DNA of 64,000 nucleotides from Paracoccaceae bacterium (GTDB lineage Bacteria; Pseudomonadota; Alphaproteobacteria; Rhodobacterales; Rhodobacteraceae): positions 1,598,136 through 1,662,135 of the forward strand of contig JAWPMR010000001.1 of NCBI GenBank assembly GCA_033344815.1, read 5' to 3'. The stretch's first letter is position 1; every line of letters begins with the position of its first letter. The notes beneath the pieces were generated by a model. It had not been told where the DNA came from. It searched no databases and saw only the letters and a program-made list of their open reading frames with translations. The translations under genes and the position numbers were made by a program. Of this stretch, positions 34,164 through 49,665 are shown one piece after another.

Positions 34164-36660
34164 ATGCTGATAATTACGGGTGGAGAAATCATTGAAGGCA
34201 ACAACGGCTTCGACAATTTTGTCTTATATACAGCGACCCTGACAGAGGCTTTGCTGGACCCGGTTTCATTCAGATACGCCGCACGCTCGGGCTCAGCAGA
34301 TGAAGAAGCGGATTTCGACAGCGCCGGCACCATTCTGACAATCCCCGCGGGACAAACCTCAGTGCAGTTTTCTGTCCGCACGGTCGCGGACAACGCTTCC
34401 GAAGCCGATGAAAGCGTCAAGGTCGACATTTTTAATGTGCAAGGCACGACGCTTGCCAATGGTGAATTGCGCGCAACCGTACAAGGCGTCATCCTCGATG
34501 ATGATGGCACGGGTCAAAAGCGGTCAGTGCTGGTCAGTGATGCCTTCCTAGTCGAGGGCGATGCAGGCACAAAACAGGCGGTTTTCGAAATCCGCCTATC
34601 GCAGCCATCAAGCGAGGCCATCACGATCAACTATGATACGCGCGACGGCACTGCGCGCGCGGGCACCGATTATACTGCGGCGCTCGGGTCAGTGACCATC
34701 GCGGCAGGGGACACGGTGGCAACGGTCGCTGTGGACGTCAGTGGCGACACCACCCTTGAAGGGACCGAGCAATTCACTCTTGTTGTTGCTCCCACCGCAG
34801 CAGATGCCGATGAGCTTGCGATCGATTTCGCAAGCGGTATTGCGACGATCTTTGACGATGACGCCTCGGATAGCGCACCTACGTTAACAGTTACCGGCGC
34901 AGATGTGCTGGAAGGCAACAATGGCTTTGACAACTTCATTGCCTATACAGCGACCTTGTCAGAGCCCTCTCTCTCGCCAGTGTCTTTCACCTATCGGGCA
35001 AACTCGGGCACGGGGGATGAGAACGCGGATTTCGACAGCGCGGGCACAACAGTCACCTTCGCCGCCGGACAGACCACGGCGCAATTCTTTATTCGCACGG
35101 TCGCTGACAACAGTTTTGAGGCTGATGAAAGCGTTCACGTCGATATTTTCAATGTGCAGGGGGCTGCTCTACCCAATGGGGAGCTTATCACCACCGTCCA
35201 AAGCGTCATCCTCGATGATGACGGATCAGGGCAAAAGCGCGCAGTCTTCGTCAATGATGTCGTGTTGCTGGAAAGCGACGCAGGCACAAGACAGGCAGTT
35301 TTCGAAATCAGCCTGTCAGACCCTGTCAACGAAACGATCACGCTGACCTACGAAACTCGGGATGGGACGGCGACCGCTGGTTCGGACTATACGGCGACCG
35401 CTGGTACTGTAACCTTTGCAGCAGGCCAGACGGTCGCATCGGTGGCTGTTGATATCTCGGGTGATACAGCCGTTGAAGGAAGCGAAAAATTCTCGCTTGT
35501 CGTCGCCCCCATTTCGGCGGACGCCGATCAACTTGCGGTCGACTTTGCGGGTGGGGTGGCTACGATCCTTGACGATGACGCCTCGAACAATACGCCCTCG
35601 TTGACCGTTACAGGCGGGGAAACTGTTGAAGGGAACAACGGTTTCGACAATTTCATCGCCTATACTGCGACGCTGTCAGAACCCGCGCTGTCGCCAGTAT
35701 CTTTTGCCTATCGCGCTGTTTCAGGAACAGCAGATGTCGCCACAGATTTCGACAATACCGGCACGAACACGATATCCTTAGCCGCTGGGCAGACCTCGGT
35801 GCAGTTCTTCGTCCGCACAGTCGCGGATAACAGTGCGGAAGCCGACGAGAACGTGCAGGTCGACATTTTCAATGTGCAAGGTGCTGCGCTTGCCAACGGC
35901 GAAGAACTCATGACTGTGCAATCGGTCCTGCTGGACGATGATGGCTCCGGCCAGAAACGGTCGGTTATTATCCAGGATACCACAATTGCAGAAGGCGACA
36001 GCGGTACCAAGCAGGCGGTCTTTGAGATCCGTCTCTCAAATCCGTCCGAAGAGGAAATTGTTTTTGATTTCACGACCGTCGAGGGTACCGCGACGAGCAA
36101 TGCCGACTTTCAAGGCGCGAGCGGTCAAGTGACCTTCGCAGCTGGTCAAACCGTGGCTTCGGTGGCTGTCGATGTTTTCGGTGACACAGCGTCCGAGCAG
36201 ATGGAAAGCTTTCAGCTGGTGCTAACAACTGCATCGCCTGAGATCGAAGGCGGACAAACAGGTGTCGCTGCTACGGCCACGCTGCTTGATGATGACACCG
36301 CGCTGGGTTTGGCGCCGGAAATCTCCCTGAGGGCCGGAGAAATCGTTGAGGGGAACAATGGTTTTGATAATTTTCTGACCTTCACGATCACTCTGTCGGA
36401 ACCGTCCACGAGCCCGGTGTCCTTCAGTTACGAGGCGCTCTCGGGCACGGCGATCGTGTCCACGGACTTCGACGTAACCGCCAATACGTTGACCATTCCC
36501 GCCGGTTTGACCACCGGACAGATCTTCGTGCGCACCGTCGCGGACAATTCGCCGGAGGAAGATGAAACCGTTGTGCTTGAACTGTCGAACCCGACCGGTG
36601 CGCTATTCGCTGGCGGCGGTGCCACGTTAAGCGCGACAGGTACCATTCTGGACGACGACA
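34164..36660 (+). repeat. Long Calx-beta double-domain repeats, 239-240 codons each
   Basis: The EGNNGFDN block begins at 34194, 34911, 35628 and 36348, giving periods of 717, 717 and 720 bases. The first three units are complete and the fourth is shortened. The units stay in frame and are similar in both DNA and protein, which points to tandem duplication. Confidence 0.9.
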
Positions 36661-38183
36661 CGCCCGCACCGGTGCTGGGCACGCCGCGGGTGTTGGTGGA
36701 CGATGCCAACGCGCTTGAGGGTAATGTCATGACCTTCACGTTGACGCGGATTGGTTCGACGGCTGAGCTAACGACCGGGTCATTCATGCTGCTGGATGGC
36801 ACTGCCGATTCCGGATCGGACTTCGCGGGGGCCAGCGGGCAATTCACCTTTGACGTGGGCGCTCTCACCACGACGATTTATGTGCCGATCAGTACAGATA
36901 GCCAAAGCGAGGGCGCGGAGACACTGGTCCTGCAACTATCGGACCTCGACAATGGCGTCTTTCCCGGAAACGCACCCGAAGCTTACGCCATCGGCACCAT
37001 TGAACCCACGATAGACCCCCCGAGTTCGAACATCATATCGGGCTCTGAGGCCAGCGAGACGATCAATGGAACAGCCCTTGACGAACAGATACTTGGATTT
37101 GGCGGCGATGACCGGATCCTCGGTTTGGAGGGGAACGACACCATCTTTGGCGGTGTCGGGCTGGATGTGCTCAATGGGGGCGCGGGCAATGATGTGCTCG
37201 ACGGTGGCGCGGGCAATGACCGGGTCTTTGCAGAAGCGGGCGATGATACGCTGATCGGGGGCGCTGGCGACGATCTGCTGGACGGCGGTGTCGGCCGCGA
37301 TACCATCCTCGGTGACACCGGCAACGATATTCTGCGCGGCTCCGACGGCAACGACGTCCTGGATGGGGGTGACGGTGACGACACCGTCTTTGGGGGCAAT
37401 GACGACGACGTCCTGCGCGGTGGCGAAGGCAATGACATGCTGGATGGCAGCGGCGGCAACGATACGATCTATGGAGACGCCGGGAACGACACGCTGGTGG
37501 GGCAGATCGGGATAGATGTGCTCAGAGGTGGCACCGGCGAGGACATATTGCGCGGCGGCGGCGGCGACGACACTTTGTTCGGTGATGAAGATGACGATCT
37601 GATGTTTGGCTCTGCGGGCGAGGATCTCATGTTGGGTGGCAGTGGCAACGACACCATGGAAGGCAACGCGCAGGCCGATACGCTTTTTGGAGAGGATGGA
37701 AATGACATCCTGCGGGGCGGCGATGGCTTTGATTTCCTTAATGGCGGTGCTGGCGATGACATCCTGGCCGGCGGTAACGGCAATGACCGTCTCATCGGCG
37801 GCGGTGGCCAGGATACGCTGCGCGGCCAAGGCAATGCCGACGTCTTCGTCTTTGAGGCGGTATCTGATTCCGCTTTCGGCATTTCGGATCTCATTGACGG
37901 GATCGATGGCGTCGGTTCTGAGACAGGCGATCTGATCGACGTTTCCACGATCGACGCGGATTCCACGCTTGGTGGCGATCAGAGCTTCACTTTTCTGGGA
38001 GAGCTCACCACCGCGCAGGGGCTTGCTGCTGGTGCAGGTGTTCTTTGGGTTGAAAACGCCGGTAACCAAACGCGGATCTACGGGTCCGTGGACAATGATG
38101 GTACAATAGATTTTGCGTTGCGCGTTAACGATGGCGCCGGGATCGACGCGGACGATTGGGTTGCTGACGACTTCTTGCTCTAG
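34164..38183 (+). CDS. RTX protein with Calx-beta repeats (1339 aa)
   Basis: Residues 1-830 are built of Calx-beta-like domains arranged as double-domain units. Each unit starts with an EGNNGFDNF block and contains ILDDDGxGQKR and a D-x-TxxAGxDYT segment. Residues 840-950 are a further Calx-beta domain (VDDANALEGNVMTFTLTRIG). An RTX array spans about 959-1226, followed by a C-terminal M10/serralysin-like module ending ADDFLL. There is no signal peptide, so secretion by a type I exporter is expected. The last 330 residues are clearly homologous to those of the 2665-aa protein upstream. A Ca-dependent adhesive or extracellular structural role is inferred. Confidence 0.88.
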   Translation: MLIITGGEIIEGNNGFDNFVLYTATLTEALLDPVSFRYAARSGSADEEADFDSAGTILTIPAGQTSVQFSVRTVADNASEADESVKVDIFNVQGTTLANGELRATVQGVILDDDGTGQKRSVLVSDAFLVEGDAGTKQAVFEIRLSQPSSEAITINYDTRDGTARAGTDYTAALGSVTIAAGDTVATVAVDVSGDTTLEGTEQFTLVVAPTAADADELAIDFASGIATIFDDDASDSAPTLTVTGADVLEGNNGFDNFIAYTATLSEPSLSPVSFTYRANSGTGDENADFDSAGTTVTFAAGQTTAQFFIRTVADNSFEADESVHVDIFNVQGAALPNGELITTVQSVILDDDGSGQKRAVFVNDVVLLESDAGTRQAVFEISLSDPVNETITLTYETRDGTATAGSDYTATAGTVTFAAGQTVASVAVDISGDTAVEGSEKFSLVVAPISADADQLAVDFAGGVATILDDDASNNTPSLTVTGGETVEGNNGFDNFIAYTATLSEPALSPVSFAYRAVSGTADVATDFDNTGTNTISLAAGQTSVQFFVRTVADNSAEADENVQVDIFNVQGAALANGEELMTVQSVLLDDDGSGQKRSVIIQDTTIAEGDSGTKQAVFEIRLSNPSEEEIVFDFTTVEGTATSNADFQGASGQVTFAAGQTVASVAVDVFGDTASEQMESFQLVLTTASPEIEGGQTGVAATATLLDDDTALGLAPEISLRAGEIVEGNNGFDNFLTFTITLSEPSTSPVSFSYEALSGTAIVSTDFDVTANTLTIPAGLTTGQIFVRTVADNSPEEDETVVLELSNPTGALFAGGGATLSATGTILDDDTPAPVLGTPRVLVDDANALEGNVMTFTLTRIGSTAELTTGSFMLLDGTADSGSDFAGASGQFTFDVGALTTTIYVPISTDSQSEGAETLVLQLSDLDNGVFPGNAPEAYAIGTIEPTIDPPSSNIISGSEASETINGTALDEQILGFGGDDRILGLEGNDTIFGGVGLDVLNGGAGNDVLDGGAGNDRVFAEAGDDTLIGGAGDDLLDGGVGRDTILGDTGNDILRGSDGNDVLDGGDGDDTVFGGNDDDVLRGGEGNDMLDGSGGNDTIYGDAGNDTLVGQIGIDVLRGGTGEDILRGGGGDDTLFGDEDDDLMFGSAGEDLMLGGSGNDTMEGNAQADTLFGEDGNDILRGGDGFDFLNGGAGDDILAGGNGNDRLIGGGGQDTLRGQGNADVFVFEAVSDSAFGISDLIDGIDGVGSETGDLIDVSTIDADSTLGGDQSFTFLGELTTAQGLAAGAGVLWVENAGNQTRIYGSVDNDGTIDFALRVNDGAGIDADDWVADDFLL
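37038..37840 (+). repeat. RTX nonapeptide array of the second RTX protein
   Basis: Tandem GGxGxDxΦx units (for example GGAGNDVLDGGAGNDRVF) cover about 270 residues. Order and variants match the array at 31050-31850 (both end with RGGDGFDFL and GQDTLRGQ), showing common descent. Confidence 0.9.
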
Positions 38184-40129: not shown

Positions 40130-40300
40130 TCAAAATTTTGCAAACCTTCTGCCCAAATATCCAAGGAAAACGGCTATGAGGATGCCGACAAGGGCGTAGG
40201 GGTGCATTGCCTCAACAGGCATTATGCTTGCTTCAGGTGCGTGGTGCGCTCCAACTGGCAGCGCCCAAAATGCTGGCAATACAGCAAAGAGATTTTTCAT
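40130..40300 (-). CDS. Small membrane protein, last gene of the guanidine operon (56 aa)
   Basis: ATG at 40300 overlaps the stop of the preceding gene (ATGA), which argues for a real, translationally coupled gene. The product starts with a signal-like hydrophobic segment (MKNLFAVLPAFWALPVGAHH), followed by a short His/Met/Glu-containing stretch (HHAPEASIMPVEAMH), then one transmembrane helix (YALVGILIAVFLGYLGRR) and a basic end. I do not recognise a family. His and Met at the membrane surface suggest metal binding, perhaps as part of metal uptake for the hydrolase (inference). Confidence 0.62.
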   Translation of the reverse strand: MKNLFAVLPAFWALPVGAHHAPEASIMPVEAMHPYALVGILIAVFLGYLGRRFAKF

Positions 40301-40725
40301 CTGTTTTCCTTATCCGATGCGGTGTGATGTCCCAAAAAAGTCCGGAGATCTACGACCTGTTTGGTTTTGAGTGAGACGTAGACAAGACCCATGTTCGTAC
40401 GTTCCGTCACCATTTCACCCGGGTATGGCAAGTAACTGAGTTCTTGCGATCCGAATGACGGTGATGCCGTACCGACCTGCCATTCTGTGGTGAGTTGTAT
40501 GTCCACCAACTTCATCTTTGGCCCGCCGCTCACGCTATCGATTTCAAGTGGGACGCCAGCGATACGCAGATAAGACATTTTGTCTTTTGCGCCGACAAAA
40601 CCGTCAATGAATTGCGTTGTAAGCACCATCAATTCATCTGCCTTGTCCGCATCAGGCATGTGGCTGTGCAGGTGGTCGTGGCTGTGGTTGTGGCCGACAT
40701 GACCGTTCACGATATCATGTGGCAT
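40297..40725 (-). CDS. His-rich protein of unknown family, guanidine operon
   Basis: About 142 aa. The first 22 residues contain eight His (MPHDIVNGHVGHNHSHDHLH), a typical metal-binding tail. The remainder (residues 25-142, with FIDGFVGAKDKMSYLRIAGV and LSYLPYPGEMVTERTNMGLV) is a soluble domain I cannot assign. The start at 40725 overlaps the hydrolase stop by 11 bases; an in-frame ATG at 40755 would add ten residues. The gene lies between a probable nickel-dependent ureohydrolase and a small His-containing membrane protein, so metal storage or delivery is the obvious hypothesis. It is not a HypA/HypB homologue: no P-loop and no CxxC zinc site were seen. Confidence 0.72.
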   Translation of the reverse strand: MPHDIVNGHVGHNHSHDHLHSHMPDADKADELMVLTTQFIDGFVGAKDKMSYLRIAGVPLEIDSVSGGPKMKLVDIQLTTEWQVGTASPSFGSQELSYLPYPGEMVTERTNMGLVYVSLKTKQVVDLRTFLGHHTASDKENR

Positions 40726-41959
40726 TGGACCACCGCTTTCCTTCGAATTCACCATGGGGAATGGTGACAGGTTTGTCTATGTGCTGCTTATGCGCACCCA
40801 TTTTGCCATTGGCCACCAACGACCCCAGCACGTCAACGATGACCCGGGTGCCCATTAGGGCGGTAATCTCGGATTGGTCATAAGGCGGTGCAACCTCGAC
40901 CAGCTCCATCCCGCAAATACCTTCTGCGGCTACTCTGGAGACCAGGCCGAGCGCTTCACGGGGAAGAAATCCACCGGGCTCTGGCCAACCAGTACCCGGC
41001 ACAAAACCGCAATCAATACTGTCGATATCAAAGGACAAATAGACCATATCCACCCCGTCCCATGCCATCTCCAGCGCCATTTCAGCCGTCTTGTCTATCC
41101 CCATCTTTTCCATATCGCCCATGGTAATGATGTTGGTTTCGCGCTCGCGCGCCACTTTCACGGCTTCGCGGGGTACCTGCCAGCCACCAATACCCACCTG
41201 CACCAGATTCTTCGCGGGAACATTGGGCATATTCGTGGCATGGAACCAGGGCGTCGTGTGCATGCGCTCATCGAGGTCTTTTTCCTGAATGTCGGCATGA
41301 CGGTCAAAGTGAATGATACCGATCTTTTTGGACGTGCATTCGGCAATGCCGCGCACGCAAGGAAAGCCGATTGAATGATCCCCCCCGATCATGATCGGCA
41401 AGCTGCCAGACGAAGCGACATGACTGACCGCCCGGGTGATCTGATCGAATGTCTTTTCGATATTGCCGGGGATGGTGAAGACGTCCCCCGCATCGCAAAG
41501 CGTCATCTGTTCGCGCAGATCCACGCCCATTTCGTAGTTGTAGGGTGTATACAACGCGCTGATCTTGCGCACGCCTTGTGGACCAAACCGGGTACCCGCG
41601 CGATAGGTTGTGCCCCCATCAAACGGAATGCCCAGAATCGTGGCGTCATAGTCGCTGACCTCTGTCACATCCTCTGCATAGGGGGCCTTCAGAAACGTGT
41701 TGATGCCCGCGTAATGCGGCAATTCCCCTCGTGCGAAGGTCGGGATGGACTTGTCTTCGATGCTTTCAGCGCCTGTCAGGCCCATGCGCAGTGCCCATTT
41801 TTTTTCCTGCTCCCAGCCCGAGCCGGGGATGTCGGACTCGGCCTGCATCGCTTTCCACCCGCGCAGCTTGGTCAGGTCGGGGTGGTGAAACCGACGCTCA
41901 TCATGGGCATGAACGGTCGGATTATGTGACCTTGATCTATCCGTTTTCTTGAAAAACAT
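40715..41959 (-). CDS. Ureohydrolase, probable guanidine hydrolase (GdmH-like)
   Basis: This 414-aa member of the arginase/agmatinase superfamily is longer than typical agmatinases because of an N-terminal extension of about 80 residues. Metal ligands are visible: GGDHS (His195), FDRHADIQE (Asp219, His221, Asp223; here D-R-H where many members have D-A-H) and SFDIDSID (Asp311, Asp313). Guanidine hydrolase uses Ni(2+) to make urea and ammonium. The family call as guanidine hydrolase rests on the guanidine-I riboswitch and transporter in the same operon plus the long N-terminus; agmatinase or guanidinobutyrase remain possible. GGAG precedes the ATG, which lies inside the end of the ATPase gene. 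Confidence 0.82.
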   Translation of the reverse strand: MFFKKTDRSRSHNPTVHAHDERRFHHPDLTKLRGWKAMQAESDIPGSGWEQEKKWALRMGLTGAESIEDKSIPTFARGELPHYAGINTFLKAPYAEDVTEVSDYDATILGIPFDGGTTYRAGTRFGPQGVRKISALYTPYNYEMGVDLREQMTLCDAGDVFTIPGNIEKTFDQITRAVSHVASSGSLPIMIGGDHSIGFPCVRGIAECTSKKIGIIHFDRHADIQEKDLDERMHTTPWFHATNMPNVPAKNLVQVGIGGWQVPREAVKVARERETNIITMGDMEKMGIDKTAEMALEMAWDGVDMVYLSFDIDSIDCGFVPGTGWPEPGGFLPREALGLVSRVAAEGICGMELVEVAPPYDQSEITALMGTRVIVDVLGSLVANGKMGAHKQHIDKPVTIPHGEFEGKRWSNAT

Positions 41960-42707
41960 GGGTGTGCTCCGTTAGAGTTTGAAAAGGAATGCCGCCGTCG
42001 CGCGCATCGAAATCGTAAGTGATTGTGGCGCCATAGAGGTTGGGATCATGCGGGTCCCAGCGTGGCTTGTCGAATACAAGCACGCGGTCCCCAAGTTTGA
42101 AGGCTTCTTCCAGATCATGGGTGACCATAAAAACGGTCATGCCCGTTTCTGCCCGTAAGTCTTGCAGGAAATCGTGCATGGACAGGCGTGTGCCGGGGTC
42201 AAGCGCACCAAATGGTTCATCCAACAACAAGATACGCGGTTTGGCCGACAGAGCCTGCCCAATGGCCAGCCGTTGCTGCATACCGCCTGACAGAGTAGCC
42301 GGATAATGATCCGCCACATGATCGAGCCCGCAGCGGGCCAGTGTTTCATCCGCGCGCGCCAAAGCAGCCTGGCGTTCGGCGCCAAAGAATCGACCCCAGC
42401 CACGGCGAAAACTCTCGCCGGCAACGACGTTTTCCCGCACGGTGAGATGCGGAAACACCGAGTATCGCTGGAAAACGATGCCTCTGTCGAGGCCCGGTTC
42501 GCGTGCGGGCGCAGACCCGTTAATTCGGATTTCTCCGCGCGTAGGCCGTTCTTGCGCCAATAGCAACCGAAGGAAAGTGGATTTACCGCAGCCGGATGCG
42601 CCGACGACAGACATAAATGTCCCTTCATCGACCTCGACGTTGACGCGCTCGATGATGGGTCGGCCATCATAGCTTTGGAAAATATCCGTGGCAGAGACGA
42701 AACTCAT
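41937..42707 (-). CDS. ABC transporter ATPase, NitT/TauT type (guanidine operon)
   Basis: This 256-aa ATPase has Walker A GASGCGKST, Q-loop region, signature LSGGMQQRLAIG and Walker B ILLLDEPFGALD. It is of the nitrate/taurine (SsuB/TauB-like) class. It overlaps the permease by ATGA and the ureohydrolase start by 23 bases. Together with the permease and binding protein it forms an importer, probably for guanidine or a simple guanidino compound. Confidence 0.88.
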   Translation of the reverse strand: MSFVSATDIFQSYDGRPIIERVNVEVDEGTFMSVVGASGCGKSTFLRLLLAQERPTRGEIRINGSAPAREPGLDRGIVFQRYSVFPHLTVRENVVAGESFRRGWGRFFGAERQAALARADETLARCGLDHVADHYPATLSGGMQQRLAIGQALSAKPRILLLDEPFGALDPGTRLSMHDFLQDLRAETGMTVFMVTHDLEEAFKLGDRVLVFDKPRWDPHDPNLYGATITYDFDARDGGIPFQTLTEHTHVFQENG

Positions 42708-43516
42708 AGCCCGCCCTCCGCCCAGGGAAAGAGGCGGCGGGACAGGTTGCGCAGCGCCCAGTCGATCAAAAAGGCGAGGATCGTGATCCAGATCACATAT
42801 GTGAGGATCACATCCATTGCGAGGTAGCGGCGCACCAGAAAGATGCGGTAACCAAGACCCAGATCAGCGGCAATCGCCTCTGCTGCAATGAGGAAAAGCC
42901 ACGCCGGACCAAGGGAAAGGCGCACGGCCTGGATCAAGCGGGGCATGATTTGCGGTAGGGCAACCCGGATTGCAATGACCCAGCTGGAGCCGCCAAGTGT
43001 CTGCGCTTTGACCAGCAACTCTTGCGGAATTTCCAGCGTTCTCTGGCTGAGATCGCGAATGAGGAATGGGAGTGTGCCGATGACGATCAGGACTACTTTT
43101 GACAGCTCTCCCAGTCCAAAGACGATGAACAAGATCGGCAATAGGGCCAAGGGCGGGATCATCGACAAAACCGCAACAAATTGCGCGAGCAAACTACGCA
43201 ACAATGGAAACAATCCGATCAGTAAACCAAAAACGAGGCCGACGAAGGCGGAAATGCCAATCCCCAAGCCCAACCGCTTTAGGCTTGCCCATGTGTCATG
43301 CCAGAGCAGAATGCGCCCGGTCCGCCGGTCGCCTTCCGTCCCCAGCCGTACGGCCGTGTCCCAAATGGTGCCGGGCGCAGGCAGCAACTTGTCGGCGGGG
43401 TTTTCACTTAGCCGGATATCAGAACCGACTGTATAGGTGATAAAGACCAATACAAAGGGCAGCAGCGCCAAGAAAAGCGCAAGCGGTTTGCCAGGTATGA
43501 TGTTTATGAGACGCAT
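42704..43516 (-). CDS. ABC transporter permease, NitT/TauT type (guanidine operon)
   Basis: About 270 aa with six hydrophobic segments and the EAA-like loop of the SsuC/TauC family (LLVKAQTLGGSSWVIAIRVA). ATG at 43516 (MRLINIIPGKPL) is preferred; 43534 is in frame. It lies 38 bases after the binding protein and overlaps the ATPase gene. Confidence 0.86.
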   Translation of the reverse strand: MRLINIIPGKPLALFLALLPFVLVFITYTVGSDIRLSENPADKLLPAPGTIWDTAVRLGTEGDRRTGRILLWHDTWASLKRLGLGIGISAFVGLVFGLLIGLFPLLRSLLAQFVAVLSMIPPLALLPILFIVFGLGELSKVVLIVIGTLPFLIRDLSQRTLEIPQELLVKAQTLGGSSWVIAIRVALPQIMPRLIQAVRLSLGPAWLFLIAAEAIAADLGLGYRIFLVRRYLAMDVILTYVIWITILAFLIDWALRNLSRRLFPWAEGGL

Positions 43517-43554
43517 CCAGTGGCCGCGGCGCAAACCGCAGCGACCGTCCTTTC

Positions 43555-44604
43555 TTACAGTGCGCCGTCCGCGGCCATTTGCATATAGGTTGTGTCAAAA
43601 CGCAGCATGACGTTGCCTTCTGCCCCGGTGATTGAGCCATCAGGATAGGCGACGCCTACGAAGTCCGCTGAGGGCGCACCCTCACCAAGTATACCCTTGT
43701 CAAACAGAAATTCGGCGACATTCACCATCGTGACAGGCAAGGCGGCGTCGCTTGTAAAACTCACCGCCTCGGCCGGGGTGAAGAACATCTCAGTGGAATC
43801 CAATTGCGCCTTGTAACCATCCAAATCTGTACCGGAAGCTTCCGCCATCGCGCTCAAGGCTGCTTCATCCCCGGAGGCCATCAGACCCATTACCTCGTAC
43901 CATGCCCCGACCAAGGCTTTGCCGAAATCGGGGTTTGCGGCGAGGGTTTCCGTGTTCACGACCATCATGTCAATGATCTCACCGGGAATATCGGCGCTGT
44001 CGAACAACTTGTTTGCGCCCGGTTCTTCCATGATCGCCGAGACCAGCGGATTCCATGTGACGACGGCCTGCACGTCATCTGTTGCGAAAGCTGCAATCAT
44101 GTCAGCGTCTGATGTGTTGATCACGCCACCAAGATCTGCTTCGGACAATCCGACGGTGTCCAGGCCACGGGCCAAAAGGTAATGGGATACCGAAAGCTCA
44201 ACCAGGTTCACCTGTTTGTCCTCCAAGGCCGAAAGGTCACCTTCGCCCTTGATGACAATAGCGTCGTTGCCGTTGGAATAGTCTCCCACGATCAACGCTG
44301 TGGTATCCACACCGCTGCCCGAAGGGATGGACAGCGTGTCCATGTTGGTAGCTGAAACGCCGTCAAACTGACCTGCAGTGTATTGGTTGATCGACTCGAC
44401 GTAATCGTTGATCTGGACGATCTCGACATCAATGCCATATTTCCCTGCCCATTTGTCCATAATGCCGCTGTCCTCAAGATACCCCCAAGGCATCCAGCCC
44501 ACATAGATCGACCACGCGACCCTGAAATCCGTTTTTTCCTGCGCACCCGCGCATGTGGCAAAAGTAAGGGCAACTGCAGTGGTTGCGGCAAGTATCTTGA
44601 TCAT
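43555..44604 (-). CDS. ABC transporter substrate-binding protein, NMT1/TauA-like (guanidine operon)
   Basis: About 349 aa with a signal peptide (MIKILAATTAVALTFATCAGA). The mature part (FRVAWSIYVGWMPWGYLEDS, then VEIVQINDYVESINQYTAGQ) is a NitT/TauT-type periplasmic binding protein. ATG at 44604 is chosen because GGGGA lies upstream at a good distance; the ATG at 44619 has none. This is the first gene behind the guanidine-I riboswitch, and binding proteins of this class are known partners of that riboswitch, so guanidine is the likely ligand. Confidence 0.86.
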   Translation of the reverse strand: MIKILAATTAVALTFATCAGAQEKTDFRVAWSIYVGWMPWGYLEDSGIMDKWAGKYGIDVEIVQINDYVESINQYTAGQFDGVSATNMDTLSIPSGSGVDTTALIVGDYSNGNDAIVIKGEGDLSALEDKQVNLVELSVSHYLLARGLDTVGLSEADLGGVINTSDADMIAAFATDDVQAVVTWNPLVSAIMEEPGANKLFDSADIPGEIIDMMVVNTETLAANPDFGKALVGAWYEVMGLMASGDEAALSAMAEASGTDLDGYKAQLDSTEMFFTPAEAVSFTSDAALPVTMVNVAEFLFDKGILGEGAPSADFVGVAYPDGSITGAEGNVMLRFDTTYMQMAADGAL

Positions 44605-44656
44605 TCTTTTGGTCCCCATTGTTTTTTACAATTGGATTGACCGCGTGGTGAGCAAA

Positions 44657-44692
44657 GGGAGGGCGCAGATCAAACCGGCGCAGTAGCCTCCC
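44657..44692 (-). promoter_or_regulatory. Possible expression platform of the guanidine riboswitch
   Basis: The conserved aptamer end GGGAGG (44692-44687) can pair alternatively with CCTCCC (44662-44657), extended by GCGC/GCGC across a 5-base bulge. Such a stem would compete with the ligand-bound aptamer and would fit an ON switch. Only a weak T-run (TTT) follows, so both transcriptional and translational control remain possible. Confidence 0.45.
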
Positions 44693-44790
44693 GGGATTTT
44701 GCCCCGCCGTGTACCTCCTGGCTTGTGGCAAGGAGGCGACATCTCTCGGACCAGGCCCTTGGAGGAAGGCGGAACCCTAGATATCCTGCG
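44687..44790 (-). promoter_or_regulatory. Guanidine-I (ykkC) riboswitch
   Basis: The - strand leader carries every conserved block of the ykkC aptamer in order: TCTAGGGTTCCG (44781-44770), CTGGTCCGAGAG (44754-44743), a variable hairpin with CCTCCTTG/CAGGAGG (44736-44714), ACACGGCGGGG (44712-44702) and ATCCCGGGAGG (44697-44687). This RNA binds free guanidine and usually turns expression on. It stands about 80 bases before the binding-protein start and should control the whole six-gene operon. Confidence 0.95.
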
Positions 44791-47003
44791 CGTTTATGAA
44801 ACTGCGTTTGCGAGATTGACTCAACGCGCAGATCCTGAGCCGGGATGTGGAAACACTGAGCTGCTCATTTTTGCGGCAAAAAATGATATGGTGTGGAAAA
44901 TTCGGGCGAAAAAGGAATGATTTGGGACCAAGACTATGGTTGAAGCACATGTCCAGCGCACCGGCACCAAAAACATCGGCTAGGTATTCAACGCTTGTTA
45001 CAGCGCTCGACAGCCGACGCCGGCAAATACAATCACGCATCCGAGCCATCGCTTCGTTTGCATCCGCTCGCCCGGGACCGTTGAAGCGAACCAAAACGCG
45101 GGCAACCCGTCCATTGACGTCGTGACAGTATCGTAATGCGTTTTGGGAATTTGCCGCGATGCTGATCAACACCACGCAGACAGCGGTCAATTGCGCCAAT
45201 GTAACGGTCACGGCATCACCACCAGAAACACCAAAGGAAAAGACCTAAAAACGGGCTACGAGCGACTCCAGCAGCCAAACCAGCCCCCTTATGGAAAGCG
45301 CCGTGAAGAGCAAAGCTTTGGATGCAATGTTAAGACCGGTCGAGATTGCCCGCCGAGTGGCCTCCCGTGGCAATGGTTAATATGATCGGGTCACCAATGT
45401 GAAAGTCAAGAAGCAAAAACCCCGAGATCGGGACGGTTAGATACACGCGCTGATTGCGGTTTTTTGGCTGATAAACCGCAACCAGAAATCGTGGATGCCC
45501 TGGCTTGCCGCAGCCATGGGCCCCAGAACCAGGGCGTTTTCAAAGCAATTCCCATACGTTCGTCCCAATCGATCAATCGACCAAACGGCGTTGACCTCTC
45601 GGAAAGACCGATCATACACATTTTCGCAAACAGAATGAAAGAAAACCAGCAAGATCCGCGCCTACATGTGACCAAAAAAGGTTATTCTGATCGTTTGCTG
45701 TTTTCCGCAAGAAGGACTCGATTGCGACTCTTTCTGCGCGACGAAAACGGCCGATGTCATTTTCGATTTCGCGTAGGTCAAAAAATTTAACAGGCTGTAT
45801 TACAGATTAAACCCCGGCCATAAGGCTAAAGCACAACAGGGCCCTCCTAACCCGAACTCGTATTTCAAAAAGTCTCATTTCGCGGAGGGGGGGCGTCCGT
45901 TTTACTCAACCCTAGATCTCCTAGAACGTGTATCTGTACGCAACTGCATCCCCTTTTGTCCAAATCAAAAAAAGATGATATCCGCTCTGGGCAGAATTCG
46001 ATTATCCCTATCATGCCCAGACTCCGATGTGGAAAAGAATCTGTTTTTAAAGCAAGAGCTTTTAGCTTTTGGGATGTTTTCGATCCTCGCTTCAATCGTA
46101 AACGAAGTTAAAGCCATCCCCTTTTCCCTCGGCGAGCGCTAGAGGCGTGAGTTTTTCTGGTTTCGCAGGGTTTTAGGCAAAAGCAGCGACGGCGAGTTCA
46201 TATTTTCGCCCAAAAAACCGTTATTGGTCGCGACCGTCTTCGACCAAAAATGCGTTGGAGTATCGCAAACAGCATTTTAACCTGCGTGCGGTTTTTTTGC
46301 GCGGGCACGTTAAACGCTCAGACTGCGGGTCAAAGCGCAACTTCAGTGAAGTTCCCTTTCTTTCGGCGGATCTTACGGTCTTATGAATTTGGGCAGCCTT
46401 TGGCTTTTGGCAGTCGGGTCATTTTTTTGGGTTTGAGCGCCCGATAAATGGATGACCACCAGCTTGTTGCATGCCGCGCCTGATCAGAGCAGGGCCACGG
46501 CTCATAGATCGGTTTCGCCCTCCGGCTAGATGCCGTGACCGATCTGATTGTTCCATTCAAGATCGGATTAGGAAAGCGTCCCAGTTTTACGCTTTTTTGT
46601 GCGGAGGACCGGGGACGCAGAGGCGAATCCACCATGCAAGCGTGGACCCCAGCCGAGTGCCGGAGGATAAATAGGCTGTATCCACAACCTCCCAATCCGG
46701 CTTGGAGCCGGATCGCTCCTGGGTCCGGCCCATCATCTTGCGGACACAGGTTTCGGGCGTCTTTTTTGGGCCGACCGACATCTGCATCAAGGCTGATACT
46801 GCAATCTGTACTCCTGTGACAGCCTCGCGAGAAGGCTTCGGACCCAGGCCTATTGCGGGTTATTGGCCTCTTGTCGACGGGATCGGCGCGCGCATCGGAA
46901 TGCTGACACCTTCGTCGTGTAGCCCATTACGGGTTCTGAGACAGATTGAGTGTTTTGCCAGGTTTGGGTTTTTATCTCGTCATAATCCTTGCGGGGATAC
47001 GAG
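44791..47003. other. Gene-poor region upstream of the guanidine operon
   Basis: About 2.2 kb with frequent stops in all frames and no recognised family. Open frames up to about 145 codons (for example 44777-45211 on the - strand) look like chance. The first 100 bases next to the riboswitch should hold the operon promoter. The rest has several A/T runs and looks like decayed DNA. Confidence 0.5.
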
Positions 47004-47823: not shown

Positions 47824-49665
47824 TCAACTCATATTGCGCCGCAGGATTGTTCCACCATCTCCGGCTGCATAATATTGACCGCTGGCATCAACGGCGAGCG
47901 CGCGCAGACCTGCGCTCGTGCCGGTTGGGTCCATGTGCCAGCGTTGTCCATCATAGCGTGCCGCGACACCACCCGCGCCAACAGTCATTACGTCGTTTTC
48001 ACATCCGGTGACAGCAAGCAAGTCATTTCGGGCCCTTATCGGAGTGATTTGCCAGCGCGTGCCATCGAAGTGACCGATGGTGCCTGACAGACCAACGATA
48101 AAAATATCGTCCAATGCCCGTCCCCAGACGTCGAACAAGAAGTGTTCAGTTCCTGCGTTGAACTCATCCCAACGAGAACCGTTCCATCGCATGACCTGGC
48201 CGAAATCGCCGACCGCAAGAAGGTGCTGTGCATCCAATCCCCAAAGCCCATACAACGCGCTTTTGGTGCCTGAAGGCATGCGTTCCCATTTTGTGCCATC
48301 CCACTGCAACACCAGCCCTTCGTCACCGGCGGCAAAAATCTGTCCCGTGCCGTCTGCCCAAATCGACAGTAAGGTGACATCCATCAGCAAGTCGAAGTGT
48401 TTGCGCCAATCCTGACCGTCAAAGTGGTGGATTTCCCCCAATTGGCCAGCGGCCAGCAGTCCGCCATCCGGTGCCCGGTTCACATCATGGATGCCTATTG
48501 CTGCCACTGGTGGCAGCTTTTCCCATGTACCGCGATCAAGAAAAAGGACCGTGCCCTCTTCGCCGCATGCATAGAGTTCATCCTCAAGGGGATCATGCCA
48601 CATCCCCCAGAGTTGCCGATCTGTCCCGCTGTCCATCGCTTCCCAATTGGCGGCGTCTTCTTTTGACAAAACAGCAGGCGCAAAGGACTCCAAGGCCTCG
48701 CTATGACCGACCAGTATGGTTCCGAAGTCTCCCACGGCCAAGGTTTCGCCAGAAGGGAGTTCCACGAGGCCCAACAGGTCATGCGACGTACCGCTTTGCA
48801 GGCGATCAATGCGACCTTCGCGGATTAGGTGGACCTGCCCGGCATCACCCAGTGTTAGGATGCCTTTTGATGTAACCCCCAACGCACGGAAACGGCTGAA
48901 TTTCATGTCTGTAAACAGTTTTTCAAATGTCTCGCCATTCCAAAGAACAGCGTCGCCGCGAAATCCGTTGGCATCAACGAAGTACCGCCCGCCTACCAAC
49001 AGCGCGCCACCAGTTTCCAAACCAAGTGACGCGGTGAAATGAGACCCGATAGGGCAGACCAGTTGTTGCCATTGCCCGTCACTTTCGCGGACTAGCACGG
49101 TCCCATCACCGCCCGAGGCCATGATGCGACCATCCTTTAAGACAATGACAGATCGCAGGTGAACCTTTGTCCCAGAAGTCTCGGGCGACCAGCTTTGCCC
49201 ATCAAAATGCAGGATTGTCCCATGATCTCCGACCGCCCAGGCGCGCGCATCTTCGAGACCGCAAATGTCAAATAAAGGTGTGTTTTCGCGCGTCGCCGGA
49301 TATTTGCCCGACGCGTCCACAACACAGCCATGTGCGTGATGCCACTGCGCGCCATCATAGCGCAGGATGAGGCCCATCCACCCAACGGCCCACAGGTTGG
49401 ACCTGTCAATGCCCCAAAGCGCATGAATCGGCACTGGAACCGGACTGGACTGACGGTTCCAGTCCGCACCATCAAAAGAAAAGATCACCCCATCATCGCC
49501 GACAACGAACAAGCCTTGTTCATCGGCCCAAGCGTCCCAGAACACATCCCCCGGACCTGCGGCCAGTCCCTCAACCGCATACCACTCGCCAGCCGCTTCC
49601 GGTGGCGCGCCAAACTGACCTCGGAACAATCCGCGACGCGAAACCGACTCCGGTGTTCCATCCAT
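47824..49665 (-). CDS. Beta-propeller (BNR/YCF48-like repeat) protein, molybdoenzyme operon
   Basis: This 613-aa protein consists of about ten repeats of the form LWGxxxxxxxAVGDxGxIxxxDGxxWxxxxSGT, for example LYGLWGLDAQHLLAVGDFGQ and FDVWGRALDDIFIVGLSGTI. That suggests one or two beta-propellers. No signal peptide is seen (start MDGTPESVSRRGLFRGQF has an Arg pair but no clear hydrophobic stretch). It begins 3 bases after the NBP35-type ATPase and is the last gene of the six-gene operon. Function is unknown; a scaffold or assembly factor for the molybdoenzyme is one idea. Confidence 0.75.
   Translation of the reverse strand: MDGTPESVSRRGLFRGQFGAPPEAAGEWYAVEGLAAGPGDVFWDAWADEQGLFVVGDDGVIFSFDGADWNRQSSPVPVPIHALWGIDRSNLWAVGWMGLILRYDGAQWHHAHGCVVDASGKYPATRENTPLFDICGLEDARAWAVGDHGTILHFDGQSWSPETSGTKVHLRSVIVLKDGRIMASGGDGTVLVRESDGQWQQLVCPIGSHFTASLGLETGGALLVGGRYFVDANGFRGDAVLWNGETFEKLFTDMKFSRFRALGVTSKGILTLGDAGQVHLIREGRIDRLQSGTSHDLLGLVELPSGETLAVGDFGTILVGHSEALESFAPAVLSKEDAANWEAMDSGTDRQLWGMWHDPLEDELYACGEEGTVLFLDRGTWEKLPPVAAIGIHDVNRAPDGGLLAAGQLGEIHHFDGQDWRKHFDLLMDVTLLSIWADGTGQIFAAGDEGLVLQWDGTKWERMPSGTKSALYGLWGLDAQHLLAVGDFGQVMRWNGSRWDEFNAGTEHFLFDVWGRALDDIFIVGLSGTIGHFDGTRWQITPIRARNDLLAVTGCENDVMTVGAGGVAARYDGQRWHMDPTGTSAGLRALAVDASGQYYAAGDGGTILRRNMS

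Follow-up and report, generated by a model that had tools for sequence, protein, structure and literature searches.

Guanidine hydrolases and their nickel helpers

The closest described relative of the operon considered here is the gdm operon of Synechocystis, where a guanidine-I riboswitch accompanies genes for an ATP-binding cassette (ABC) importer of SsuA, TM_PBP2 and NrtD-SsuB types, for the guanidine hydrolase GdmH (Sll1077) and for HypA/HypB-like accessory proteins (PMC8390497, PMC12186494). GdmH is nickel dependent, and it is these two accessory proteins that load the metal (PMC12186494). Genes hypA and hypB are common in gdmH operons (PMC8390497), those of marine picocyanobacteria included (PMC10119275), and the metformin/dimethylguanidine hydrolase requires co-expression of HypA/HypB and is encoded in a hypA-hypB-ureohydrolases-hupE operon (PMC11399263). 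Nitrospira inopinata has a guanidinase of the same group as GdmH, likewise under a guanidine-I riboswitch, but its locus carries an APC permease rather than an ABC importer (PMC11410670). Here we describe a gdmH operon from a relative of marine Roseobacter bacteria (Paracoccaceae bacterium, assembly GCA_033344815.1), whose GTDB family is, by its named relatives, the Rhodobacter/Roseobacter group. The window, which is the whole stretch of 64,000 nucleotides that was analysed, spans positions 1,598,136 to 1,662,135 of contig JAWPMR010000001.1, the one contig of a 5.08 Mb genome of 99% completeness. The riboswitch, the importer type and GdmH are common to this operon and that of Synechocystis, but the genome has no HypA match and the operon instead includes genes for an orphan histidine-rich protein, P5, and a membrane microprotein, P6, the last two genes, which the initial annotation did not single out.

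As a guanidine operon this is a further case of a known kind; the novelty sits in the accessory module of P5 and P6, a new variation and a candidate answer to the open question of nickel loading. P5 is proposed as the loader because an enzyme that requires nickel stands here without its usual loader and alongside a histidine-rich orphan. We consider it reasonably probable that the locus is a guanidine-inducible nitrogen-scavenging operon with P5 as a dedicated metal-delivery protein of GdmH, and somewhat probable, from comparative genomics, that the role of P5 is specifically to deliver nickel to GdmH. A bolder version is offered tentatively, at a little under an even chance: that P5 is the first of a new family of nickel-delivery proteins, dedicated to GdmH across the Alphaproteobacteria, which would replace HypA/HypB and need no nucleotidase encoded beside them in the operon, with P6 as a metal collector on the membrane side. 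If P5 is the loader in Alphaproteobacteria, nickel delivery would have a new solution, experimenters would know which gene to co-express for active guanidine hydrolase, and thousands of proteins now without a function would gain one.

P5 may be compared with small histidine-rich nickel proteins encoded beside a nickel enzyme, such as Hpn and UreE. CooJ, another of these, is a precedent for such a role, with 16 histidines and four bound nickel ions, and its mutants depend on added nickel; its histidine tail is C-terminal, whereas that of P5 is N-terminal (PMC6006190). The likeness of P5 to CooJ and Hpn is one of description rather than of direct sequence comparison, and only one of 17 P5 members matches UreE (E 0.78), which is no convincing relation. 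With the metformin hydrolase operon our locus has in common a nickel ureohydrolase, helper genes and a membrane gene downstream, but the helpers there are HypA/HypB and HupE (PMC11399263), and here two orphan families stand in their place.

P5, P6 and their linkage to gdmH

P5 has a two-part architecture, a histidine-rich N-terminal tail followed by a conserved, histidine-poor core. The open frame (40297-40755) extends upstream of the start that we adopted, ATG 40725, because the MPHD start of relatives lies there. Across 79 loci the tail has a median of 49 residues and 17 histidines (range 5-28), with at least eight histidines in 76 of them, and the core a median of none. The core is detectable down to 21% identity and retains nine invariant residues among 17 diverse members.

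No known family accommodates the protein. The window's P5 passed no Pfam or NCBIfam cut-off and had no PDB relative, and by sequence it belongs to none of the known nickel chaperone families HypA, HypB and UreE. The best E-values among the 17 diverse members were 0.085 in Pfam and 0.056 in NCBIfam (to a Ni/Co efflux model), and 0.016 in Pfam over 40 members. Membership of a described family was rejected on these searches, which gave weak matches only, some to His tags or metal proteins; some of those to metal proteins probably stem from the histidine tails themselves. The family is nevertheless large: the window protein as sole query retrieved 1142 homologues, and a search from a diverse alignment, in which the best 8000 candidates were scored, at least 2954. 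Of the 120 homologues listed per search, none had a Pfam domain, and any source name given was hypothetical or uncharacterised. No P5 match was found in viral contigs.

A shared function is suggested by the linkage of P5 to gdmH, the latter identified in the genome and plasmid samples at E<=1e-100. Within the window's GTDB family, gdmH occurred in 44 of 295 genomes and P5 in the same 44, plus a remnant in G159; a class-wide sample of 385 genomes yielded 11 with gdmH, every one of them with P5, and two more with an incomplete P5 copy only (G418, G655); and in a phylum-wide sample of 398 gdmH occurred in seven genomes, all from the window's class, of which three had not been in the other samples and each of these three had P5. 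In total, P5 is present in 57 of 57 gdmH-bearing alphaproteobacterial genomes from 11 GTDB families. It adjoins gdmH on the same contig in 56; in the other, G098, a contig break intervenes and both genes lie at contig starts. A set of 80 named loci may overlap in species with the 57 sampled genomes; P5 lies directly downstream of gdmH in 79 of them, with short and often overlapping junctions and a largest gap of about 500 bases, while in the 80th (L102) the contig stops at gdmH. The same association is seen on plasmids, where 11 records carry gdmH and P5 accompanies it in seven of seven from Alphaproteobacteria and none of four from Actinomycetota; no other plasmid matched either of two P5 queries. 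Four gdmH matches were flagged with one internal stop (G419, G750, G1017, G194), which in the first three is the terminal stop, since the open frame ends with the match.

P5 without a strong gdmH match was found in the samples only as three incomplete copies, all in draft genomes (G159, G418, G655), weaker gdmH matches being left out of account. That of G418 is an 82-residue piece. In G655 (L203/L205) a broken guanidine-type substrate-binding protein (SBP) gene runs into the P5 core, and the histidine-rich stretch is C-terminal instead of N-terminal. In G159 (L176, 6023-6595) a guanidine-I riboswitch is followed by a short P5 piece and a P6 homologue that looks intact by eye, without a gdmH match; either the middle of the operon seems to have been deleted here or the assembly is at fault.

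P6 is a 56-residue protein whose start codon lies within the ATGA that terminates P5. By eye and by hydropathy it has a signal-peptide-like start, a histidine-containing segment (for example AHH or AHxxxHxHPHG), one transmembrane helix and a basic end. A similar open reading frame immediately follows P5 in 49 of the 79 named loci (46 by strict and three by relaxed rules; a candidate at L093 was excluded as dissimilar), so P6 is frequent without being universal, and beyond the window's GTDB family it was seen in only one of 14 loci. Seven P6 members gave no library family above cut-off, the lowest E-values, all under curated cut-offs, being 0.0064 (PSDC) and 0.017 (DUF6732). HupE, which the segment past the signal peptide resembles, was considered as an identity for P6 and dropped, there being no HupE match in Pfam. 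A function for P6 in gathering metal at the membrane is conjectural.

Nickel supply and the rival explanations

The usual loader is missing from this genome, which gave no match to HypA (PF01155); judged by HypA, the operon falls outside the class of GdmH operons with HypA/HypB-type chaperones. A HypA match is absent from 40 of the 57 gdmH genomes, this one included (HypB was searched for in this genome only). In the other 17 (16 above cut-off) HypA is either on a different contig or no nearer to gdmH than 45 kb (G266, G005), distances that are limited by the draft contigs. A histidine-rich partner of guanidine hydrolase was not found in the titles and abstract openings of the literature or in passages of PMC12508155, so an earlier mention is possible.

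A plausible sequence of events is as follows. Guanidine would bind the aptamer and turn expression on, probably because the SBP gene's ribosome-binding site is then released; the ABC transporter would bring guanidine in; GdmH would split it to urea and ammonium at a nickel-containing site, as expected from its family; and the chromosomal urease would finish the route. Meanwhile, the histidine-rich tail of P5 would collect Ni2+ and its conserved core would dock on GdmH and pass the metal over, and P6 might enrich Ni2+ on the outer side of the membrane. P5 would thus substitute for GhaA and GhaB, the HypA/HypB-like pair of Synechocystis. The metal, the docking and the transfer are what we infer from the co-occurrence and the sequence features observed.

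Two alternatives do without delivery of nickel to GdmH. P5 might form a heteromer with GdmH, as a subunit with a structural or a regulatory part, and have a tail for another metal or for none, which we consider unlikely. The close pairing of the genes and their short, often overlapping junctions would suit a subunit, as would a P5 whose tail is nearly devoid of histidine (L172), and metformin hydrolase is indeed heteromeric (PMC11399263). However, the guanidinase of N. inopinata is homohexameric and resembles the Synechocystis enzyme (PMC11410670), P5 matches no ureohydrolase model, and the tail has eight or more histidines in 76 of the 79 named loci. It is also quite improbable that P5 serves to store or buffer nickel, whether as a detoxifying sink or in the manner of Hpn, with no direct handover to GdmH. 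Tails that are very rich in histidine and variable in length are what a store might have, but a buffer needs neither a conserved histidine-poor core with invariant residues nor such tight linkage to one enzyme gene across 57 genomes.

The remaining alternatives concern the transporter and the substrate. The order SBP-permease-ATPase-gdmH-P5, which holds in 93 of 104 loci examined, could make P5 a partner of the transporter. This was rejected because P5 stays beside gdmH in L124 and L189, where a search at the score limits used did not find the three ABC genes alongside, and we regard it as barely credible. Very unlikely, too, is an enzyme that acts on another guanidino compound, agmatine or similar, with guanidine regulation incidental. 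The window enzyme just passes the NCBIfam agmatinase model TIGR01230 (178.0 bits against 174.3), but its scores to two characterised guanidinases exceed that to the next solved family by some 370-380 bits, and its position in the tree, the Trp of its GTGWPEPGG motif and the guanidine riboswitch upstream all argue for guanidine.

Several observations weigh against P5 as a nickel-delivery protein of GdmH, or against the wider reading of the operon, to which the agmatinase score just given should be added. The genome's own urease and the G3E GTPase near it, by position UreG, could share nickel with GdmH. Four actinobacterial gdmH loci lack P5, and in two of them (L184, L186) the annotations show no HypA within 8 kb, L185 and L187 not having been searched; for the guanidinase of the comammox bacterium N. 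inopinata no chaperone is known, and the loading mechanism is called unclear (PMC11410670). Some GdmHs therefore seem to manage without P5 or HypA. Conversely, a P5 core that is almost complete persists in G655, where gdmH gave no match, so that P5 without gdmH is rare but possible, even if this core lacks its own start and continues from the broken SBP gene. The tail may be non-essential, since the window's own is on the short side, with eight histidines within the first 22 residues, three of the 79 loci have only five to seven, and that of L172 has almost none. Finally, the stability of the whole leader is unremarkable (z -0.91).

The enzyme, the riboswitch and the rest of the operon

Features of the operon in the window (positions within the window)
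Feature	Position	Strand	Basis
Guanidine-I (ykkC-yxkD) aptamer	44686..44791	-	RF00442, 78.6 bits, full length
Proposed translational expression platform	44611..44676	-	Segments conserved in 15 aligned leaders; pairing by eye
ABC substrate-binding protein (SBP), putative guanidine binder	43555..44604	-	TIGR03427, 512.7 bits
ABC permease, taurine/nitrate-like	42704..43534	-	PF00528, 66.6 bits; NCBIfam matches under cut-offs
ABC ATPase, nitrate/taurine-like	41937..42707	-	PF00005, 110.4 bits
GdmH-type guanidine hydrolase (ureohydrolase family)	40715..41959	-	Structure scores, tree, GTGWPEPGG motif
P5, orphan His-rich protein, 142 aa, proposed GdmH nickel-delivery protein	40297..40725	-	gdmH co-occurrence, His-rich tail
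P6, 56-aa membrane microprotein	40130..40300	-	Similar open reading frame after P5 in relatives; ATGA overlap with P5

The enzyme belongs to the Pfam Arginase family and scores 550.8 bits to the solved structures 7esr/7oi1 and 540.8 to 9fek; the next solved relative, the guanidinobutyrase 3nio, scores 168.6. The PDB itself labels 7esr/7oi1 and 9fek agmatinase, although 7OI1 is the Synechocystis and 9FEK the N. inopinata guanidinase (PMC11410670). In a tree of 30 rows, with no arginase or verified agmatinase among them, the window enzyme falls in a set of 25 with both reference guanidinases (support 96/97), the others being 18 further alphaproteobacterial and four actinobacterial rows; the tree program flagged long branches, that of L187 included. 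The guanidinobutyrase and the genome's own paralogues, four rows that represent three proteins (L003 and L004 overlap and are the same row), lie outside this set. The motifs GGDH, DRHxD, SFDID and GTGWPEPGG are all present, and the Trp of the last, which by motif would correspond to Trp305/Trp313 of the published enzymes (PMC11410670), is found in 24 of the 25 GdmH-side rows; L187, the guanidinobutyrase and the four paralogue rows have Thr at this position. An agmatinase or guanidinobutyrase identity was rejected on scores, tree and motif despite the TIGR01230 cut-off being passed; the agmatinase models themselves point both ways, PRK02190 being missed (212.7 bits against 302). The evidence thus supports a GdmH-type guanidine hydrolase, with guanidine specificity and nickel dependence as predictions, and the phylogeny proposed in the initial annotation as a check on this identity came out in its favour. 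The hydrolase route that it suggested can also be completed, since the genome encodes a urease alpha subunit elsewhere (189.7 bits, at 4.48 Mb); some 2.5 kb from it stands the gene of a G3E GTPase, read as UreG because of its position.

Two other ureohydrolase loci may be mentioned. G000:C1:972496-974309 encodes two tandem ureohydrolases with 32-34% identity to the window GdmH, at least one with a guanidinobutyrase-like GTGTPEIGG. On a Rubrobacter plasmid (L184, 8022-15439) the actinobacterial gdmH has as neighbours genes for a sodium:solute symporter, formamidase and urease, and the stretch holds no P5 and no annotated HypA.

The covariance-model search (cmscan) scored the aptamer at 78.6 bits against a gathering score of 63 (E 2.6e-12 for the window), over model positions 1-107 of 107, as the single RF00442 match in the whole genome. 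The aptamer is therefore assigned to the guanidine-I family by covariance score, with guanidine binding predicted; its ends differ by one base each from those first proposed (44687-44790), and the Rfam check that had been asked for was significant. A guanidine-I match was found in 52 of the 57 gdmH genomes (51 above cut-off), on the gdmH contig in 50. Three genomes (G065, G127, G239) have two guanidine-I riboswitches apiece, and a second guanidine-controlled unit may exist in some relatives.

Downstream of the aptamer, read by eye, GGTTTGATCTGCG (44664-44676) is able to pair with an anti-Shine-Dalgarno segment, GCGGTCAATCC (44634-44644), which could alternatively pair with the Shine-Dalgarno sequence GGGGACC (44611-44617). 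With a simple core motif the aptamer was located in the window and in 33 of the 80 named loci, and the spacers measured in 33 leaders were of 80-85 bases in 18 and of 90-95 bases, with other sequence, in 15. We aligned the window with 14 close relatives, which makes 15 of the 18 in the 80-85-base class, and the survey is partial because the motif search was simple and only this class was aligned. Three segments are kept 3' of the aptamer in these leaders: GGTTTGACCCGCG or similar, GCGGTCAWTCCA, which by eye can pair with either flanking segment, and the Shine-Dalgarno sequence, mostly GGGGACC and immediately 5' of the start codon. The minimum free energy fold of the window leader contains a hairpin that sequesters the ribosome site. 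The leader may thus act as a translational switch, which would open the ribosome site when guanidine binds.

Six genes on the same strand follow the aptamer, five as open frames and the small sixth by translation, and the operon proposed in the initial annotation stands as described. Four of its five junctions overlap, by 4, 23, 11 and 4 bases from the permease through the microprotein, and the gap between SBP and permease is about 20-40 bases according to the start codon chosen. The SBP open frame runs over 43555-44619; ATG 44604 is preferred as its start because ATG 44619 overlaps the Shine-Dalgarno sequence and relatives start right after GGGGACC. TIGR03427, which the SBP matches well above its cut-off of 333.9, is labelled a 'putative urea' transporter in the library. 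Together with the nitrate/taurine-like permease and ATPase it agrees with the NitT/TauT-type importer that had been suggested, neither of these two passing the cut-off of a specific subunit model among the matches listed (each of the 25 NCBIfam matches shown for the ATPase was under its own). By gene type, the transporter would import guanidine. The operon probably imports and degrades guanidine under switch control, and taken alone the uptake-and-hydrolysis reading is very likely correct.

Elsewhere in the window, a 1339-residue open frame (34164-38183, forward strand) has Calx-beta-like repeats and a C-terminal GGxGxD (RTX-type) run, and by eye its product would be a large secreted calcium-binding protein. 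On the reverse strand, a 613-residue open frame (47824-49665) has many WAVG/GTILHFDG-type repeats and looks, by eye, like a putative beta-propeller.

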